64,000 nt of DNA from Methanoregula boonei 6A8. Lineage in GTDB: Archaea; Halobacteriota; Methanomicrobia; Methanomicrobiales; Methanospirillaceae. Numbering within the stretch: the first letter of the stretch is position 1; each line of letters opens with the position of its first letter. Positions 50,772-61,648 of this stretch are shown in pieces. Location of the stretch: assembly GCF_000017625.1 (NCBI RefSeq), contig NC_009712.1, forward strand, positions 124,001 through 188,000. Direction: 5' to 3'. The position numbers were made by a program, and so were the translations under genes. The notes below the pieces were generated by a model, which made no database searches, had not been told where the DNA came from, and worked only from the letters and a program-made list of their open reading frames with translations.

Positions 50772-51374
50772 TTACATCTTAATCTGAGCCAGCGCATCAA
50801 ACACATTCTTCCGGTACACTGCCGGGTCGAGCATGGGGTACTGCTCCTTTGCCTTTGTAATGTCCGGGCTGGTGCCGGTGGCAAGCGCGTCGAGCCGGTC
50901 GAGCGTCCGGGCCGCGGTGTCCAGCACCCAGAGGTCGCGGGTCTCCTTTTCCACGACCGTGATTGATTCTACCCGGACTGAGACAAGGTACGACCCGTCC
51001 GGCTTCTGGTACAGGTTGGGCTTTCCCGTAACCGAGACAAAGGCCGGTGTCTCGATCTTTGCGAGCTGCTGCATTGCCTCGGGCTGGTAGCTCCCCGCCA
51101 TCACAAAGAACGTGCCGGTCGGGTCGATAACCCGGCCGCGGTAAAAGACGTTCTGCTCGCCCTGCCGGCTTTTCTCGGTCAGCGTCCCGGAGATAAAGAT
51201 CCGGTTGGAGCGCTCACCCGTGGGGAGAAGGACAAAGGTCGGGCTCTTCTCGTCCTCGCCATCCTTGAACTGGTACCGGCACTCGCGCAGCTCGCTTGCA
51301 AAGACCCGGCGGGCCGGCTCGCGCTCGAAGCTGGCATCGCGGCGCCCTCCCATCTCCGGAGCAGTCGAACTCAT
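50772..51374 (-). CDS. RPA-associated protein
   Basis: A 200-residue protein of the family found next to archaeal RPA genes (COG3390-like), with one OB-type fold: ELRECRYQFKDGED at the start, RIFISGTLTEKSRQG and the FYRGRVIDPTGTFFVMAGSY segment near residues 77-96. It binds single-stranded DNA together with the RPA subunit encoded just upstream (four-base ATGA overlap) during replication and repair. Confidence 0.88.
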   Translation of the reverse strand: MSSTAPEMGGRRDASFEREPARRVFASELRECRYQFKDGEDEKSPTFVLLPTGERSNRIFISGTLTEKSRQGEQNVFYRGRVIDPTGTFFVMAGSYQPEAMQQLAKIETPAFVSVTGKPNLYQKPDGSYLVSVRVESITVVEKETRDLWVLDTAARTLDRLDALATGTSPDITKAKEQYPMLDPAVYRKNVFDALAQIKM

Positions 51375-52621
51375 GAGGCACCCCCGGCGCGGTTGAGGAG
51401 CTTTGCATGCTCCCCGCTCTCAAAGTGCATCTTCTCACAGGTGTTTACGAGCAGCCGGTTCTCGATCTCCCGGCCCTTGCACACCACGTACCGTCCCAGC
51501 ACGCGGTCGCGCATCTGCAAAAAGACCTCGTCCATCCCGAGCGGGTTGTTCTCTGCGATCTCCTTTGCCTGGTCGAGTGTCATGCCGGTCAGTGGTTCCA
51601 CCACGTCACGCTTGAGGAGGATGTTGTGCGTCTTTTCGCCATCATCCAGCCATCCCTTGATCCGGAGGTCGTACTCGAACCGGGGCTGGATCTCGTGGAT
51701 CGGACAGTAGTTTTGCCGGGAGAGGGCACGGTTGCAGCCCGGGACCGGGCAGCGCTTAATGATCCCCGAGCCGGGCGCAATGTGGACAAGTGCCCCGCGG
51801 ACCTCGGTGTCGCCACCGGTGACGGTGGCAATATCGCCTTCCTCCTGCATGATGGCCGCGCCCGTGATGTTGAGCGAGAGCCGTTCGTTGAACTCGTCGG
51901 CCTGCGCATAGAAGATCGAGTATACCGCGCCCACGGCAAGTTTCTCCTTTCCCTGCTCCTTCCAGATGATGAACTTCACCGTGCCGGTCTCGTCACCTAT
52001 AAGGCCGGACTGGAGCATCCGGTCGTGGGTTGTGTCCCATTCCTGGACCACTTTCGCGCGGACGCTCCCGATGCCGGGGTGCAGGTCTTTTATGGCACAG
52101 GGTGCGGGGATGAGCGGGTCGGTCCGGTCAATTGCGGTGATCGTGGTCCCCGAATGCACCTTGAGATTGGGGATATTCTTGTACTCGTCTACCACGGCCG
52201 AGTCGAGGCGGTACCACGCGCCTTCGTCCATCTTTGGCGCATTGGACTTGGCCCAGACCACAAATCGGATTGCGCCCGATTCGTCGGCGAGGATCCCACT
52301 CTGGGCTATTGCCGGCGATGCGGGCGCGGAAAGGGAGACCACTTTGCCTTCGATGGTCACCCAGTCCCCGGGCCGGGCATCGGCGATCTTCTTCTCGCTT
52401 GTCGCCCCGCCAGCCGGGCCGGGAGTTCCTGGCACTCCCGCAGGGGTGATGTTGAACTCCTTATTCAGTTCGTTTGTCACGCTGCGCTCTGCTTCGGCCG
52501 GCTGGACACCGAACTCCTCGACAAGCCTGCGCAGCTTGCCTTCGATCTTCTGGCGGTCAATCTCGTGGCCGGTTTTTGCATACTTTCGGGAGATTCTCTC
52601 GGTTGCTTCGGAATAATCCAT
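51371..52621 (-). CDS. rpa: Single-stranded DNA-binding protein RPA, large subunit
   Basis: A 416-residue replication protein A. After a helical N-terminus come at least two OB folds (WVTIEGKVVSLSAP near residue 86; SVRAKVVQEWD near residue 186) and a zinc-ribbon-like C..C..CPIH segment near residues 305-325 inside a further OB region. It coats single-stranded DNA. First gene of the RPA operon; ATG 52621. The arrangement is that of euryarchaeal RPA with a C-terminal zinc finger. Confidence 0.92.
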   Translation of the reverse strand: MDYSEATERISRKYAKTGHEIDRQKIEGKLRRLVEEFGVQPAEAERSVTNELNKEFNITPAGVPGTPGPAGGATSEKKIADARPGDWVTIEGKVVSLSAPASPAIAQSGILADESGAIRFVVWAKSNAPKMDEGAWYRLDSAVVDEYKNIPNLKVHSGTTITAIDRTDPLIPAPCAIKDLHPGIGSVRAKVVQEWDTTHDRMLQSGLIGDETGTVKFIIWKEQGKEKLAVGAVYSIFYAQADEFNERLSLNITGAAIMQEEGDIATVTGGDTEVRGALVHIAPGSGIIKRCPVPGCNRALSRQNYCPIHEIQPRFEYDLRIKGWLDDGEKTHNILLKRDVVEPLTGMTLDQAKEIAENNPLGMDEVFLQMRDRVLGRYVVCKGREIENRLLVNTCEKMHFESGEHAKLLNRAGGAS

Positions 52622-56022: not shown

Positions 56023-56532
56023 ATGCAGGACGTGCGTTTAACGATCAAGAAGCGCGCATTCCCCAGCCACGGCCGGGTGCGCCTCAACGCCGCAATCCTC
56101 CCGGACCTTGGTGTCGCGGAAGGGGAGCATGTGGATCTGATTAACGAAGCCGCCAAAAAATCGGTAAGCGTCACCGTTATCGCCGACTCGATGGTCCCGG
56201 CCGGGCAGATCCGGGTAAGCGAAGAGGATCTCAAAAAGATCGGCCTTTCCGAGGGAAGCGAGGTCCTCGTCCGGAAATCGGTTGCCCTTAAGGAGAAGCT
56301 CTCCAAGGCTGCTGCCGAGGCAAATGCCTCGCTTGAAAAGGAGGCAAAAAAGATCGATGCGGCCGCAAAGAAAACCGCCGGCGATGTTTCGGCCGGGGCG
56401 GCATCAGCGGCAAAAACCATAAAAAAAGAGACCGATAAGGCTACAAAGAGCATAGGCAAGGCGGTCTCGAAAACCACAAAAGACGTAAAAAAAGCGGTAA
56501 AAAAGGCCACCGGGAAGGAGAATGACCTCTGA
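56023..56532 (+). CDS. Beta-barrel-like N-terminus with Ala/Lys tail
   Basis: A 169-residue protein. The first ~80 residues look like a small double-psi or AbrB/VAT-N-type beta-barrel (VRLTIKKRAFPSHGRVRLN, EGEHVDLINE, EGSEVLVRK). The C-terminal ~85 residues are rich in Ala and Lys with repeated KK(A/T)..K patterns, as in histone-H1-like or amphipathic tails. ATG 56023 starts the conserved part. It opens a cluster of small coiled-coil proteins; function unknown. DNA or membrane-surface binding through the tail is possible. Confidence 0.75.
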   Translation: MQDVRLTIKKRAFPSHGRVRLNAAILPDLGVAEGEHVDLINEAAKKSVSVTVIADSMVPAGQIRVSEEDLKKIGLSEGSEVLVRKSVALKEKLSKAAAEANASLEKEAKKIDAAAKKTAGDVSAGAASAAKTIKKETDKATKSIGKAVSKTTKDVKKAVKKATGKENDL

Positions 56533-56590
56533 TATGATCTCCCCCGCGCGTAGTAAACAAGGGCCGCGGCCGGGACAGGGGGCGTAGACC

Positions 56591-56998
56591 GTGGCTGATG
56601 TCACCGATGCTGCAGCCGCTGCGGTGAGCGGTGTCCCGGACATGGTGTATGTCGGGATCTTCATTATCCTTGGGCTTCTCGTGGTGTACCTTATCATCCG
56701 TGAGATCCGGATCATGCGGACCACCAACCGCTCTATCGAGCTCGAACTCGAACGTGACAAGCTCAAGCTCCTCCAGCAGCACGAGGCCCAAAAGAGCTTC
56801 CCGTTCACCCGCTTCTCCCCCGAGCAGACGGCCGCGATCCGGCAGGTGGAAGATGAGACCCAGGCTCTTGGGAACGACAACTATGCAAAGGAAAACCTCC
56901 TCGAAAAACGGTTGAGCCGGCTTGAAAATATCGCGAAATCAAAGAAACTCGACAACCTGCTCCATAACGTGGGCGAGCAGGAGAAGAAGGTGAAATAA
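56591..56998 (+). CDS. Membrane-anchored coiled-coil protein
   Basis: A 135-residue protein with one hydrophobic helix (MVYVGIFIILGLLVVYLII, residues 18-36) and a long charged coiled coil (about 38-135). Start GTG 56591 with AGGGGGC upstream. The Glu/Lys/Leu heptads and lack of other domains suggest a scaffold tethered to the membrane. It lies 58 bases from the previous gene and two bases before the next. Confidence 0.75.
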   Translation: MADVTDAAAAAVSGVPDMVYVGIFIILGLLVVYLIIREIRIMRTTNRSIELELERDKLKLLQQHEAQKSFPFTRFSPEQTAAIRQVEDETQALGNDNYAKENLLEKRLSRLENIAKSKKLDNLLHNVGEQEKKVK

Positions 56999-57000
56999 AC

Positions 57001-57315
57001 ATGTCGTTTATCAGCCAGGATGCCGAAATAAACCCGACCGGGAGCTCTTTTTTGGACCGGTTCGCCGAGATCCCCGGAGCGATCGAATCCCGGATCCCGA
57101 CGTTCGACAGATCGCTTGACGCCTATTTCGACCAGCACTTTGCGGCCATCATCGAGGAATGGGGGCTTGTCACCGAGGGAGACCTTCAGGGTCTCGAAGC
57201 CCGGCTCGCCCGGGTGACCGATGAGATCAGCAGCCTGTATGCGGGCAGAGCAGCACTTGAATCCCGGGTACAGCGGCTTGATAACCTGATCACCTCACTG
57301 GAGCGATCGAAATGA
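57001..57315 (+). CDS. Coiled-coil paralogue 1
   Basis: A 104-residue protein whose core (about residues 38-95) reads SLDAYFDQHFAAIIEEWGLV followed by TEGDLQGLEARLARVTDEI and a coiled tail. The same pattern (x..Y.D..F...(I/V)EEW.L.T...L) occurs in the two next genes, so all three are paralogues. It has no membrane helix. It overlaps the following gene by four bases. Confidence 0.75.
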   Translation: MSFISQDAEINPTGSSFLDRFAEIPGAIESRIPTFDRSLDAYFDQHFAAIIEEWGLVTEGDLQGLEARLARVTDEISSLYAGRAALESRVQRLDNLITSLERSK

Positions 57316-57533
57316 TTGGCATGGATTCATACCTGAATGCCTACGTGGACCGAAGGATGAAACTGATCGTGGACGAGTGGGACCTTTCCACCCGGGAGGA
57401 TCTCGGGGAATTTACCGGAAGGCTTGCGGCGCTCGAACAGGAGATCCCCCGGCTCAAAGCTTTTGAGAAGACCTCCTCGGATAAGCTTGCCGAACTCGAA
57501 AAGAGGGCGGCAAAACTCAAAGGAGGTGCATAA
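57312..57533 (+). CDS. Coiled-coil paralogue 2
   Basis: A 73-residue version of the paralogue core: SYLNAYVDRRMKLIVDEWDL followed by STREDLGEFTGRLAALEQEI and a short Lys/Glu coiled end. Lacks the N-terminal extension of paralogue 1 and the membrane helix of paralogue 3. ATG 57312 overlaps the previous stop as ATGA; one base separates its stop from the next ATG. Confidence 0.75.
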   Translation: MIGMDSYLNAYVDRRMKLIVDEWDLSTREDLGEFTGRLAALEQEIPRLKAFEKTSSDKLAELEKRAAKLKGGA

Positions 57534-57534
57534 G

Positions 57535-57891
57535 ATGGACCTCTTTACCTTCATCCTCCTTGTCCTTGTCCTCTGTGCCGTTCTCTTCCTCGTGTTTTAT
57601 TATTTCCGGGGGGCAAAAGGCAACATCTCCCTCACCCGCCCGGTAGAGAGCCGGGTGGACGAGTACCTTGACCGCCGGTTCCAGAGCATGGTAGAAGAGT
57701 GGCAGCTTGTTACCCGTTCCCGCCTCGGGCAGTTCCAGGACCGGCGTGTCCCGGAGATCGAGCAGAACGAGGCACGCATCGCCGAGCTGAAGAGCTACGA
57801 AACAGGGATGCAGACAACGCTTACCTCGCTGGAGGCGCGCCTTGACGTTCTGGAAAAAGAACTGGCCGGCAAAGGAAACGCCAAAAAATAA
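57535..57891 (+). CDS. Coiled-coil paralogue 3 with membrane anchor
   Basis: A 118-residue protein. A hydrophobic helix (about residues 4-23) precedes the shared core (about 36-75): SRVDEYLDRRFQSMVEEWQL followed by VTRSRLGQFQDRR and a coiled tail. ATG 57535 has AGGAGG 10 bases upstream. It adds a membrane anchor to the paralogue family. Its 3' end overlaps the next gene by 50 bases. Confidence 0.78.
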   Translation: MDLFTFILLVLVLCAVLFLVFYYFRGAKGNISLTRPVESRVDEYLDRRFQSMVEEWQLVTRSRLGQFQDRRVPEIEQNEARIAELKSYETGMQTTLTSLEARLDVLEKELAGKGNAKK

Positions 57892-58147
57892 GGGAGCTGC
57901 GGAGCGTCTCCGCGAGCTCAAAAAAGAGATCACGGTGATGCGCAAGCAGGGGGAGCCCCCGGTAAAGGACCCCCACAGCTTTGCGCAGTTCACCTGCGAT
58001 CTCTGCAACACCGCCCATCCGATAGCCGAGCTCAGGCAGTGCGTGCTCTGCGGGAGATGGGCCTGTAACGCGTGCTGGAAGGACGAGTACTATACCTGCC
58101 GGTCCTGCGCCGGCCTCATCAAAATCCACCAGCTCAAAGGGGAGTAA
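57842..58147 (+). CDS. Small zinc-binding protein
   Basis: A 101-residue protein with a basic helical start and a cysteine/histidine cluster: CDLCNTAHP, then CVLCGRWACNACWKDEYYTCRSC, fitting a B-box- or LIM-like double zinc site (quoted in parts). Start TTG 57842 has GGAGG six bases upstream, so the long overlap with the previous gene looks genuine; no ATG precedes the cysteines except at 57938, which would still keep them. Probably the last gene of the coiled-coil cluster. Confidence 0.65.
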   Translation: MTFWKKNWPAKETPKNKGAAERLRELKKEITVMRKQGEPPVKDPHSFAQFTCDLCNTAHPIAELRQCVLCGRWACNACWKDEYYTCRSCAGLIKIHQLKGE

Positions 58148-58232
58148 ACCCATTTTTTAGCCGGATTGCCGGTAACGGGTGCCGGCCTGCCCCAAGCCAT
58201 TTATCGGACCCGGCTCAACAGATCCGGTACTT

Positions 58233-58895
58233 ATGCTCCTCCCGTTCAATATTATCGATGTGGTACTCCATTTTGACAAGTACCTCCCGGTTATCCTCCA
58301 GCAGTACGGCCTGTGGACCTACGTGGTTCTGTTCCTGATCCTCTTTTTAGAGACCGGTATCGTAATCGCTCCTTTCCTGCCGGGCGATTCCATGCTTTTT
58401 GTTGCAGGGGCGCTTGCCGGCACCGGCCTTTTGGACATCCGCATCCTGCTTGCCACCTTGGTTATCGCGTGTGTACTCGGGGACACAGTCAACTACTGGA
58501 TCGGGTATACTTTCGAGATGAAGGTGCTGGAATGGAGATACTCGCTGGTCAAAAAGGAGCACCTCGAAGAGACCCACCGGTATTTCGAGAAGTACGGCGG
58601 TTTTACTATCGTCATTGCCCGGTTCATGCCCTTTATCCGGACCTTTGCCCCGTTTCTTGCCGGTGTCGGGAAGATGCGGTACTCGTGGTTTGTCGGGTAC
58701 AATATCCTTGGCGGGGTGCTCTGGGCTTCCCTGTTCCTGCTTACCGGCTATTTCGTGGGGAATCTCCCGATAGTCCAGGCAAACTTTGGGCTCATCACGT
58801 ACGCAATCATTGCGATCTCGCTTGTAGCGCTCGTTTCAGTTTTTGCAAAGATTTACCTGACGATGAAAAAGGAAAAAGGGAGCGGGAAGGCATAA
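58233..58895 (+). CDS. DedA/SNARE-associated family membrane protein
   Basis: A 220-residue membrane protein of the DedA family, involved in lipid scrambling or proton-coupled membrane homeostasis. It has the family marks FLETGIVIAPFLPGDSMLF near residues 37-55, GDTVNYWIG near 87 and the arginine-bearing FMPFIRTFAPFLAGVG near residue 130. It starts 86 bases after the zinc-binding protein gene and may have its own promoter. Confidence 0.9.
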   Translation: MLLPFNIIDVVLHFDKYLPVILQQYGLWTYVVLFLILFLETGIVIAPFLPGDSMLFVAGALAGTGLLDIRILLATLVIACVLGDTVNYWIGYTFEMKVLEWRYSLVKKEHLEETHRYFEKYGGFTIVIARFMPFIRTFAPFLAGVGKMRYSWFVGYNILGGVLWASLFLLTGYFVGNLPIVQANFGLITYAIIAISLVALVSVFAKIYLTMKKEKGSGKA

Positions 58896-58907: not shown

Positions 58908-59459
58908 TCATTCCCCGGTGACAACACGGATCGGCATCCGCGCAATCTTTTTGTAGATCGCGGCGGTCTCTTTCTGGGTCCAGCGGTCGAACACAAGCGA
59001 CTGGAACGGCTGCCAGATCACCACCCAGCACATGATCACGAGAACATTCTCGGCCACTTCGACAAACGGGTTGCCTTTGAACTGGGAGCAGATCGCGATC
59101 CCGATAAAGGAGGGAGCACAGACCGCAGCCGTAAGCCGGCACTCCCGCAGGCCCACCCGGACCGTAAGAGCGGTACTCTCTGCCATCTCGTCTGCCCGGC
59201 GCAGGAAGTGCTCCCTTATGGCAGAGACGATTGCCTCGCCCTGTCCCGGTGCCGGATCCGGCACCCGGATTTCAATCTGCCCGCAGAGCCGGGTACGCCA
59301 TCCCCGTGAAGCAGAAAGGACCGTGCGGAAGATCCGGTCTTCCGCCTTTTCGGAGAGATCCCGGTGTGCTCCCGGCGACGGGTCGTCGCTGTCGTAGATC
59401 TGGGCAACGGACTTGAAAGTGACCGTGCCGGTCCGTAGCGTTGTGGTGTCGTGTGCCAT
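58908..59459 (-). CDS. Hypothetical protein
   Basis: A 183-residue protein, start ATG 59459. The N-terminal ~110 residues are an alpha/beta region with Arg-rich helices (GEAIVSAIREHFLRRADEM), and a weakly hydrophobic part follows (AENVLVIMCWVVIWQPF near residues 137-153). The DRWTQKETAAIYKKI segment near 160 is a conserved-looking basic end. No family recognised. Convergent with dedA, divergent from the methylase-like gene. Confidence 0.6.
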   Translation of the reverse strand: MAHDTTTLRTGTVTFKSVAQIYDSDDPSPGAHRDLSEKAEDRIFRTVLSASRGWRTRLCGQIEIRVPDPAPGQGEAIVSAIREHFLRRADEMAESTALTVRVGLRECRLTAAVCAPSFIGIAICSQFKGNPFVEVAENVLVIMCWVVIWQPFQSLVFDRWTQKETAAIYKKIARMPIRVVTGE

Positions 59460-59593
59460 ACAAAAGATCCCGGTATTTCCGGGTTCTCTGTTGGTGCACG
59501 GCCAGCATAAAATATCCCGGTTACCGGATCTTTTTTCCGGTAGCGATCTCCCCCGGAAACATTCTTGCGCATGCTGCACCGAATACTACCATC

Positions 59594-61648
59594 ATGAGAC
59601 CTCCCGGCACCGGTGAGTTTGGCGAGACCGCGGTGCCGGTTTTGGCCGGGCCGGAGGCAGCGCTGTACAATGACCTCTGCACATGGCGGGAGCAGCTTGC
59701 CCGGAGCATTGCCCGTACTCATATCGGGATGCGGAGCAGCAGGATTGGGCAGGCTGCAAATCAGGTGCTCTTCTCGCTTCTTGCCCTTGCCATTGCGGAG
59801 GACCGGCACCTTGTCGATCCCGGGACAGTATGGACAATCGCGGAGACTGGTGACGGGGAATCATGTTTACCGGAGATTCTTTCAACCTTCGGAGATCTGT
59901 GGGCCGGCACAGATGGCACTGCGGGGACCGGCCGGAATCCGGAAGGAATTCCCGTAATTGATGATGCCCTGATCAGGGAGATCGCTGGCCGGCTTACGGG
60001 TGCGGACCGGCCCTACGATCTTTCGCAGATCCCGCTTGCATCCGTTGCCGCGATCCTCGACCGGTACCTCACCCGTACGGTCCGGCGATCTGCCGCCCAC
60101 CAGGCAATTGTGATCGACCGGCCGGAGACCGGGGCATGGCAGGTGGAGATCACCCCGGCGCTTGCGGACTATGCGGCCGGGCGTACGCTTGCCGCAGTCT
60201 GTGCCGGCCGGTCCCCTGACGATCCTCTCCCGCTCCGGGTAATTGATCCTGCCTGCGGGGCCGGTCGGATGCTCCTTGCTGCGTACCGGTACCTTCGTTC
60301 TCTCCCTGGCAATGATGAGCCGTCCGATCTTTTGCGGCACACGCTCCACGGCATCGATCCTGACCCTCATGCGGTTGCGGCGGCAAGGATGATGCTCGCC
60401 CTTGCGGCCTGTAGTGACAGAGACGGATCCGCGAATTCTCCAGAGTTTATCCCGGCATTCCGGGAATATCTGGCGATCCTGTCGGCCACGATCCAGTGCG
60501 GGAACGCACTTGTCGGTCCGACGATCGCAGATGATGAGTCATGGGCATTCTGTCCGGTCCGGGAGCGCCATGAGCTCCGGCCCTTCGCGTGGCAGGAGTA
60601 TTTTCCGGAAGTACTGCTACCCGGCGGATTCGATGCGGTGCTCTGCTGCCCGCCCGAATACCCGGTGCCGGCCCGGGAATGGCTACGGCAGTACTTCCAG
60701 CGCCACTATACCGTTTACGATCCCGGTGCCGGGCTCTCCGCGTACGTGGTTGAAAAAAGCCTTGCCATACTGCGGCCGTATGGTGTTGCCGGTATTGTTG
60801 GCAGCGACCGCTGGCTCCGCGCCCGGTCCGGTGCCCCGCTGCGCACGTTTCTCCTTGGGCGGCAACCGGAGGAGATCTTGACGGCCGGGAAAGACTCCTG
60901 TTTTCTTCTCATGGCAAATGCCCGTACCTTCCGGCCCTTCATTGTCCGGAATGCGGGACCGGCCCCGGCCGGTGCAGATGCAATCCGGGAGATCCCGGGC
61001 TTCCCGGTCGATCCGCGGGATCTTGCGGCCGGGGGCTGGGTGTTCCGCGATACCCGCGGGAAACGGCTGGTGGAAAAGATCTCCCGTGATACGACACCGC
61101 TTGGGGAGTACGTGCTCGGGGAGATCCGGTATGGTGCCGGTACCCGGCCGGTGCCCTCATCACATGGCGGTCGGGACCGGATTATCTTCTCCGCCTCTGC
61201 GGTTCCTCCGCGCTTTGAGCTTGCCGGGAACCGTGCCGCCCCCGGCCCGGGGACCGGGATCATCATGTCCGGGAGCCGGTACCTGCTCGGGCTGCTCAAT
61301 AGCCGGCTTGCAGAATTCCTGTTCCACAGCATTTGGGAAGAGACAGGAGATCCGGGTGACGTTGTTGCCCTTTTTCCGGTTGCGACCCCGGATTTCGATG
61401 ACCCGGTCCAGGCGGCCCGGCACGGGCGGTTGGAATCGCTCGTGACAGAGAGGCTCGCTCTTGCCCGGCACCGTACGCTTGCCCGGTCGCCCCGGGAACT
61501 CCAGGCCATCAATGCAGAGATGGTATCAACCGAAAAACAGATCGAGTCGCTGGTGTACGGGATTTACGGCCTTTCCATGGACGAGATCTCCTTTGTGGAA
61601 TCATCATTACCGTCGGAGAAACCCTTGTCTTCCGGAAAACGGTCATAG
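59594..61648 (+). CDS. Adenine-methylase-like protein with altered catalytic motif
   Basis: A 684-residue protein that resembles type IIG or BREX-like N6-adenine methylases: helical N-terminus, SAM motif VIDPACGAGRMLLAAYRYL near residues 215-233, then a target-side domain with the final-part TRD-like region. The catalytic NPPY motif is replaced by CPPE (context AVLCCPPEYP near residue 355), so Asn and Tyr are lost. Its GC-rich composition resembles that of the host genes. It may be a catalytically dead, repurposed or decaying relative; no nuclease domain or partner gene is next to it. Confidence 0.75.
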   Translation: MRPPGTGEFGETAVPVLAGPEAALYNDLCTWREQLARSIARTHIGMRSSRIGQAANQVLFSLLALAIAEDRHLVDPGTVWTIAETGDGESCLPEILSTFGDLWAGTDGTAGTGRNPEGIPVIDDALIREIAGRLTGADRPYDLSQIPLASVAAILDRYLTRTVRRSAAHQAIVIDRPETGAWQVEITPALADYAAGRTLAAVCAGRSPDDPLPLRVIDPACGAGRMLLAAYRYLRSLPGNDEPSDLLRHTLHGIDPDPHAVAAARMMLALAACSDRDGSANSPEFIPAFREYLAILSATIQCGNALVGPTIADDESWAFCPVRERHELRPFAWQEYFPEVLLPGGFDAVLCCPPEYPVPAREWLRQYFQRHYTVYDPGAGLSAYVVEKSLAILRPYGVAGIVGSDRWLRARSGAPLRTFLLGRQPEEILTAGKDSCFLLMANARTFRPFIVRNAGPAPAGADAIREIPGFPVDPRDLAAGGWVFRDTRGKRLVEKISRDTTPLGEYVLGEIRYGAGTRPVPSSHGGRDRIIFSASAVPPRFELAGNRAAPGPGTGIIMSGSRYLLGLLNSRLAEFLFHSIWEETGDPGDVVALFPVATPDFDDPVQAARHGRLESLVTERLALARHRTLARSPRELQAINAEMVSTEKQIESLVYGIYGLSMDEISFVESSLPSEKPLSSGKRS

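Follow-up and report, generated by a model that had tools for sequence, protein, structure and literature searches.

We analyzed a window of 64,000 nucleotides (nt) from Methanoregula boonei 6A8 (contig NC_009712.1, positions 124,001 to 188,000 of the forward strand; C1:124001-188000 of a 2.54-Mb single-contig genome), and found that positions 56023 to 58147 of this window form a single six-gene operon with the order CDCN-TMcc-E1-E2-E3-zinc protein. All six open reading frames (ORFs) lie on the plus strand, at the positions given in an initial annotation of this DNA. The first gene, CDCN (56023-56532), codes for a stand-alone double-psi beta barrel, predicted to be of CDC48/p97-N type (approximately residues 1 to 88), followed by an Ala/Lys amphipathic tail, and TMcc (56591-56998) codes for an N-terminal membrane segment and a predicted cytoplasmic helical part with an invariant R-h-x-x-h-E motif. 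Three EEW paralogues are next: E1 (57001-57315), with an N-terminal extension, core, and coiled coil, and E2 (57312-57533), the shortest of the three, are both without a membrane segment, and E3 (57535-57891) carries an N-terminal membrane anchor. The zinc protein (approximately 57842-58147) consists of an N-terminal helix and an eight-cysteine binuclear treble clef; its TTG start was placed through conservation of the N terminus. The initial annotation described overlaps or tiny gaps throughout, which is accurate from 56591 onward, where the successive junctions are a gap of 2 nt, an overlap of 4 nt, a gap of 1 nt, and an overlap of 50 nt, but not for CDCN and TMcc, which are 58 nt apart.

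The core Y.D..F...(I/V)(E/D)EW.L.T...L proposed for the three central genes is present in E1, E2, and E3, and their resemblance is not simply one of generic coiled-coil composition. When the coil is cropped and the 34-residue cores are compared as HH profiles, the pairwise probabilities are 98.1, 98.2, and 97.6% (E values of 9e-14, 3e-14, and 3e-12), with three reversed cores giving 0.2 to 0.4% and 30 column-shuffled cores giving 0.1 to 10.2%; the whole profiles score 98.6% (E1/E2), 97.7% (E1/E3), and 98.4% (E2/E3). By these comparisons, E1, E2, and E3 are true paralogues that share a core beyond coil composition. The TMcc profile has a 2% probability against E1 and 56% (E value of 1e-4) against E3, TMcc and E3 each having a membrane segment, and TMcc is therefore not counted as a fourth copy. 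In a tree of 106 sequences with 74 columns kept, E1 (100/98) and E3 (99/94) each fall on one side of a branch, as does E2, unsupported (44/28). From this tree, the triplication is most likely older than the spread of the operon; the tandem duplication originally suspected is thus upheld as a triplication.

The alignment set comprised 37 loci including the window, in part from the same genomes as the named loci, and from it L057, L058, L065, and L066, having weak zinc matches and no other operon gene, had been dropped beforehand; 35 of the 37 loci are complete. Hydropathy agrees with the earlier suggestion that only one of the three paralogues is anchored, with the highest 19-residue value reaching 1.6 or more in all 35 E3 and all 34 TMcc proteins, and in none of the 34 E1 or 34 E2 proteins. 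E3 and TMcc each have a single N-terminal membrane segment, after which the net charge is positive (means of +2.3 and +2.1, respectively), and by the positive-inside rule their helical parts should be cytoplasmic. The R-h-x-x-h-E trimer motif is carried by 27/34 E2, 34/35 E3, and 34/34 TMcc proteins, relative to means of 1.0, 1.0, and 1.8 in shuffles that ignore shared descent. Mean hydrophobic spectra peak close to the heptad value for E1 and E2, at 104 degrees, and at 101 degrees for E3. The near-heptad periodicity of E1 and E2, the motif in E2, E3, and TMcc, and the overlapping genes make hetero-oligomeric scaffolding, as first proposed from the differing membrane attachment, a plausible interpretation.

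The barrel of CDCN is modeled with confidence by AlphaFold2 (AF2), with block mean predicted local distance difference test (pLDDT) scores of 92 to 97 over residues 1 to 80 and 84 over residues 81 to 90, falling below 55 thereafter; the barrel is followed by a helix and then a low-confidence tail. Foldseek returns a Cdc48-type ATPase (5e7p; E value of 4e-8) as the top match to this model, with designed double-psi barrels and N domains of p97 next in the ranking, and VIA aligns it with p97 N (3tiw) at a Z score of 16.5 and a root-mean-square deviation of 3.4 over 92 residues. The beta-barrel protein with an Ala/Lys tail that was initially described can thus be named, by prediction, as having a CDC48/p97-N-type double-psi barrel in its N-terminal part. 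Among 34 aligned CDCN relatives, 32 match CDC48_N and 26 match Molydop_binding at an E value of 0.01 or less, and the window protein itself scores 22.2 bits against CDC48_N, short of the Pfam gathering cutoff of 35.1. Pfam finds neither CDC48_2 (Nc) nor an AAA domain in the window CDCN; the same genome encodes two Cdc48 ATPases, each with CDC48_N, CDC48_2, and AAA.

The tail of the window CDCN has a hydrophobic periodicity that peaks at 98 degrees with a power of 9.3 (shuffled mean, 2.1; none of 200 shuffles as high), and 20/34 CDCN tails peak at 96 to 99 degrees with a p value of 0.005 or less; the longer tails have an 11-residue periodicity and are rich in Ala, Lys, Glu, and Gly. Part of one published account (PMC5889406) describes 11-mer helices in synuclein, apolipoproteins, and perilipins, with lipid-dependent folding. 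Among the 34 CDCN proteins, Pfam reports Apolipoprotein in nine, ApoLp-III in four, and Senescence in two, and a search of the CDCN profile against PDB sequences gives apolipoprotein A-IV as the best match, with no single stretch significant, and alpha-synuclein lower. A lipid-binding role for the tail would be consistent with these similarities. A TrkA_C domain is present in the seven CDCN proteins longer than 240 residues (L043, L045, L046, L047, L049, L050, and L064; best E value of 4e-12), as well as in the CDCN of a Theionarchaea locus (L108:3702-4769; 45.9 bits, cutoff of 27), and these eight loci are confined to one half of a midpoint-rooted operon tree; Pfam has no TrkA_C match in the window CDCN. 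We also note that the extreme C terminus of CDCN (window positions 56506 to 56529) ends in Asp/Glu/Gly-Leu in 19/34 proteins, that is, in 19 of the 27 that are shorter than 200 residues.

The zinc-binding protein originally noted beside the paralogues clearly belongs to Prok-RING_2 (PF14445), with 130.4 bits (gathering cutoff of 22.4); all 36 aligned relatives match that family at an E value of 0.01 or less, with eight invariant cysteines in 36 sequences spaced C-x2-C-x11-C-x2-C-x4-C-x2-C-x7-C-x2-C. The protein thus has the eight zinc ligands of a binuclear finger, a feature common to RING, FYVE, and PHD fingers and so not decisive. The AF2 model is confident over residues 31 to 90. Foldseek gives nothing for it at an E value of 0.001 or less (best 0.14, with RINGs among the matches listed), and FYVE or FYVE-like fingers fill the first 19 rows of the VIA comparison, with Z scores of 5.9 to 3.9, all below 8 and weak for so small a finger. 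Pfam matches in the 36 zinc proteins include FYVE_2 in 16 and FYVE in 5. Together these comparisons weakly suggest a finger closer to FYVE than to RING. FYVE domains have the basic phosphoinositide-binding motif R(R/K)HHCR; this motif is not found in the zinc protein alignment, where the consensus is ELRQCxLCGRWAC. A 24-residue zinc-finger match is also present in one viral contig (L169). In three genomes (G108, G195, and G065), there are extra CDCN-TMcc-E1-E2-E3 copies without a zinc gene (L144, L145, and L148); in G115, two copies are cut (L146 and L147), and in these no zinc gene follows E3. A zinc search agrees, with 1, 2, 1, and 1 matches in G108, G195, G065, and G115, respectively; with contamination of G195 estimated at 4%, its extra copy could be from a foreign contig. 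These five-gene copies indicate that the zinc protein is a separable part of the system.

Absence of a conserved gene order in relatives would have spoken against a common system, and the order is instead strongly conserved. A scan of genome contigs for the zinc protein, which used one exact pattern and misses divergent copies, identified 73 loci, three of which are bacterial, match over just 21 residues, and have no operon gene. All six genes are present in order in 62 of the other 70, all archaeal (counting as complete L077 and L140, in which CDCN, and TMcc and the zinc gene, respectively, are in two frames), and in the remaining eight the first gene is no more than 115 bases from a contig end. 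In the 35 complete aligned loci, with starts chosen by alignment, the E1-E2, E2-E3, and E3-zinc junctions overlap or are separated by 5 nt or less in every case, with an exact 4-nt overlap at E1-E2 in 25 and at E2-E3 in 27; the same spacing is seen for 24/35 TMcc-E1 and 7/35 CDCN-TMcc junctions. Because the order is kept across genera and families, the six genes very likely work together.

The operon is shared by many methanogenic archaea. Records with the locus are labeled Methanoregula, Methanolinea, Methanospirillum, Methanogenium, one Methanoculleus, Methanomicrobiales or Euryarchaeota only, and two Theionarchaea. Among 199 genomes of the class, 76 have the zinc domain over the cutoff (79 at an E value of 0.001 or less), 75 have E3, and 74 have TMcc, in nearly the same genomes, with the zinc domain and E3 together in 74. 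The exceptions are G184, with a zinc gene only, at a contig start; G194, with CDCN-TMcc-E1-E2 up to the contig end; G171, which is without TMcc because the contig ends after E2; and G157, with a lone weak zinc-finger match and none of the other five genes in the 6,000 bases read. Thirteen weak partial PF14445 matches over the cutoff (22 to 32 bits) are in other families of the phylum. The operon is patchy, and is not found in near-complete genomes that include two of the window's own genus (G053 and G070). In a tree of 42 loci and 651 columns, for which no root was inferred, four changes of family label are needed and three are the least possible (f1, 4; f6, 2); for this count, the window, L111, and L102 were merged into f1, the Methanogenium rows into f6, and L118 was left out. 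Within the order, the tree gives barely any support for transfer, and gene loss is about as good an explanation of the patchiness as transfer is.

The two Theionarchaea genomes with the operon (L108, complete; L098, cut) are the only two that have it among 101 sampled from that class. In the tree, they are placed beside Methanospirillum-type rows (83/78), and one transfer between classes is probably the simplest account of these copies. Ten stretches from the two genomes have tetranucleotide correlations of 0.87 to 0.97 with each other (L098 and L164 overlap); the corresponding values are 0.42 to 0.56 for the window and reach 0.75 for a Methanospirillum-type locus. One of the two genomes, G508, has a 16S that shares 78.9% identity with that of the window genome over 1,471 bases, and the other, G509, gave no 16S match. 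We considered that these loci could be binning errors, which is unlikely given the compositional tie of the operon contigs to the rest of their genomes and the G508 16S.

Some of the neighboring genes code for membrane proteins. A VTT/DedA-type membrane ORF (window positions 58179 to 58895) is on the same strand, 31 nt past the zinc gene, and VTT also follows the operon in L042, L044, and L077. DUF308 membrane proteins are just downstream in three lineages (L109:6450-7019, L064:8548-9111, and L125:2979-3584), and an M48 (HtpX-like) membrane protease (L146:5265-6143) is on the same strand, approximately 210 nt after a cut zinc-less copy. All of these neighbors are on the same strand and within 500 nt downstream, with no baseline count. 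These downstream membrane genes hint at envelope functions. As side observations, two genes lie upstream in L108 (1005-2329), one that by eye is roadblock-like and the other of MinD/ParA type, and there is a further membrane coiled-coil gene right after the zinc gene (L108:6315-6791). In the window, a 735-residue ORF that by eye resembles a restriction-modification DNA methyltransferase lies near the operon (59441-61648), and two adjacent minus-strand ORFs (50772-52621) look by eye like an archaeal RPA-type single-strand DNA-binding pair.

The interpretation that we favor, tentatively and at somewhat less than an even chance, is that the products of the operon build a coiled-coil scaffold at the inner side of the membrane, where a Cdc48-N-type module and a zinc finger are displayed, perhaps for the handling of membrane or envelope proteins. 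Support for the architecture is fairly good: the paralogy, gene order, joint occurrence, membrane segments, and tail periodicity are observed, and the barrel fold is predicted. The function, the assembly of the subunits, their cytoplasmic side, lipid binding by the tail, and a link to Cdc48 or proteolysis are inferred. The six proteins would form one complex at the inner face of the cell membrane, anchored by TMcc and E3, whose helical parts would extend into the cytoplasm. Contacts through the EEW core and coil that the paralogues have in common would bring E1 and E2 together with E3 in trimer-based, perhaps mixed, bundles. The CDCN barrel would be presented at the membrane, helped in many lineages by the 11-mer amphipathic tail, and in some supplemented by a TrkA_C sensor domain, and the zinc finger would be a separable peptide- or protein-binding subunit. 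Such a complex would most likely serve to collect membrane or envelope client proteins and pass them to an unfoldase of the Cdc48/VAT type or to a protease. A more specific and distinctly doubtful version is that of a prokaryotic docking station, in which a Cdc48 N module cut from its ATPase, kept at the inner membrane through a synuclein-like helix and seated on a three-paralogue trimeric coiled-coil scaffold with a separable treble clef, would constitute an analog of endoplasmic reticulum-associated degradation without ubiquitin, in at least two archaeal classes.

Several observations weigh against the scaffold interpretation. There is no ATPase or protease among the six genes, and no outside gene accompanies them in every genus; among the clusters of neighbors, the largest three were antisense ORFs inside the operon. 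The downstream genes, as noted, have no baseline for comparison. The sequence of the window CDCN gives a slightly better match to Molydop_binding (1.2e-4) than to CDC48_N (1.7e-4), neither of them over the cutoff, and double-psi barrels are found in unrelated proteins. In most comparison rows, the match is limited to the Nn half of the N domain (approximately p97 residues 21 to 115); classical p97 adaptors use the groove between Nn and Nc, which would be absent with the Nn half alone. The tail periodicity is not significant in 14/34 CDCN proteins, all with 67 residues or fewer after residue 85. Finally, the trimer motif is in only 3/34 E1 proteins, the shuffles used for comparison take no account of shared descent, and the TMcc spectrum peaks at 114 degrees with no heptad peak, a misfit to a plain heptad coil.

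An unlikely but substantial alternative is a membrane-surface coat or remodeling complex of the synuclein, perilipin, or phasin type, in which the amphipathic tail and the coiled coils would cover and stabilize patches of membrane, either during stress or at the surface of a lipid body. The 98-degree periodicity of the 20 tails and the Apolipoprotein, ApoLp-III, Senescence, apolipoprotein A-IV, and alpha-synuclein matches would all fit a coat, and Phasin (PF05597) matches 14/34 E1 proteins at an E value of 0.01 or less (best 8e-5). However, the window E1 scores 15.2 bits relative to a phasin cutoff of 28.8, other coiled-coil families match as well, and the membrane-spanning segments of E3 and TMcc suit a bilayer rather than a monolayer granule. 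Class III polyhydroxyalkanoate synthase was not found in any of six genomes from three of the five operon-bearing genera, in a search that detected only one control, below cutoff. It is improbable that the operon instead codes for an ion-transport regulator or nucleotide-signal sensor, with TrkA_C on CDCN sensing a ligand and the scaffold relaying this to transporters; the TrkA_C domains, including that of the Theionarchaea protein, and the DUF308 and VTT genes adjoining in some lineages are compatible with this, but the domain is missing from the window CDCN and most of the 34, and no transporter is a constant neighbor.

The Pfam RING label and eight invariant cysteines of the zinc protein, together with two ThiF/E1-type genes in the genome, raise the question as to whether the complex is a RING-type E3 ligase of an archaeal ubiquitin-like system. 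We consider this quite improbable, as zinc ligands 4 and 5 are separated by four residues, the top structural rows are of FYVE type (Z scores below 6), none of the other five genes resembles a conjugation component, and extra copies are without the zinc gene; no E2-enzyme (PF00179) match was found in the genome (G000), although the same search detected none of 14 controls. A Prok-RING_2 protein, we caution, need not be a ubiquitin ligase. The operon's patchiness in the window's own genus, extra copies in some genomes, and presence in just two of the Theionarchaea-class genomes could also describe a mobile accessory or antivirus cassette, which is very improbable given that the tree needs only one label change above the minimum. 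A PADLOC scan of the six proteins yields only weak matches of the CDCN tail half to ZorA models (best 18.5 bits), PHROGs gives nothing at an E value of 0.01 or less, and no relative of E3 was found in viral contigs or plasmids.

The initial annotation knew of no described system with this makeup, and this is correct for the six-gene set, of which we found no description in a literature search that did not comb full texts, but not for the zinc protein, a clear member of the known Prok-RING_2 family. That family covers one subunit and not the six-gene set, and is a RING by name, although the zinc spacing and model here lean toward FYVE; we take it to stem from Burroughs, Iyer, and Aravind (2011), who may already have sketched this neighborhood. 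The window CDCN, TMcc, E1, E2, and E3 proteins are over no curated cutoff in Pfam or NCBIfam. The novelty is in the whole assembly, built from known folds, and would be lessened if the 2011 paper describes the operon.

Among other known systems, there is a resemblance, below the cutoff, between E1 and the C-terminal region of the phasin profile, and the operon differs from phasins in its membrane anchors. The longer CDCN tails are like the 11-mer helices of alpha-synuclein, perilipin, and apolipoproteins in periodicity and Ala/Lys/Glu/Gly makeup, although we claim no homology and the short-tail lineages are without the periodicity. With the N domain of p97, Cdc48, and VAT, CDCN has in common the predicted barrel fold (Z score of approximately 16) and the profile similarity of nearly all relatives, but it is stand-alone, has the Nn half only, is without CDC48_2 or AAA, and bears a tail, in some cases with TrkA_C. 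In endoplasmic reticulum protein degradation, p97 is recruited to the membrane by proteins such as gp78, VIMP, and Derlin. The idea of a membrane-anchored platform tied to a p97 N module is common to these and the operon, but in the operon the N module is itself one of the components, and no ubiquitin chain is shown. If the link to Cdc48 is correct, then an archaeal unfoldase module would be brought to the membrane without ubiquitin, providing an evolutionary comparison for the membrane-protein quality control of eukaryotes.

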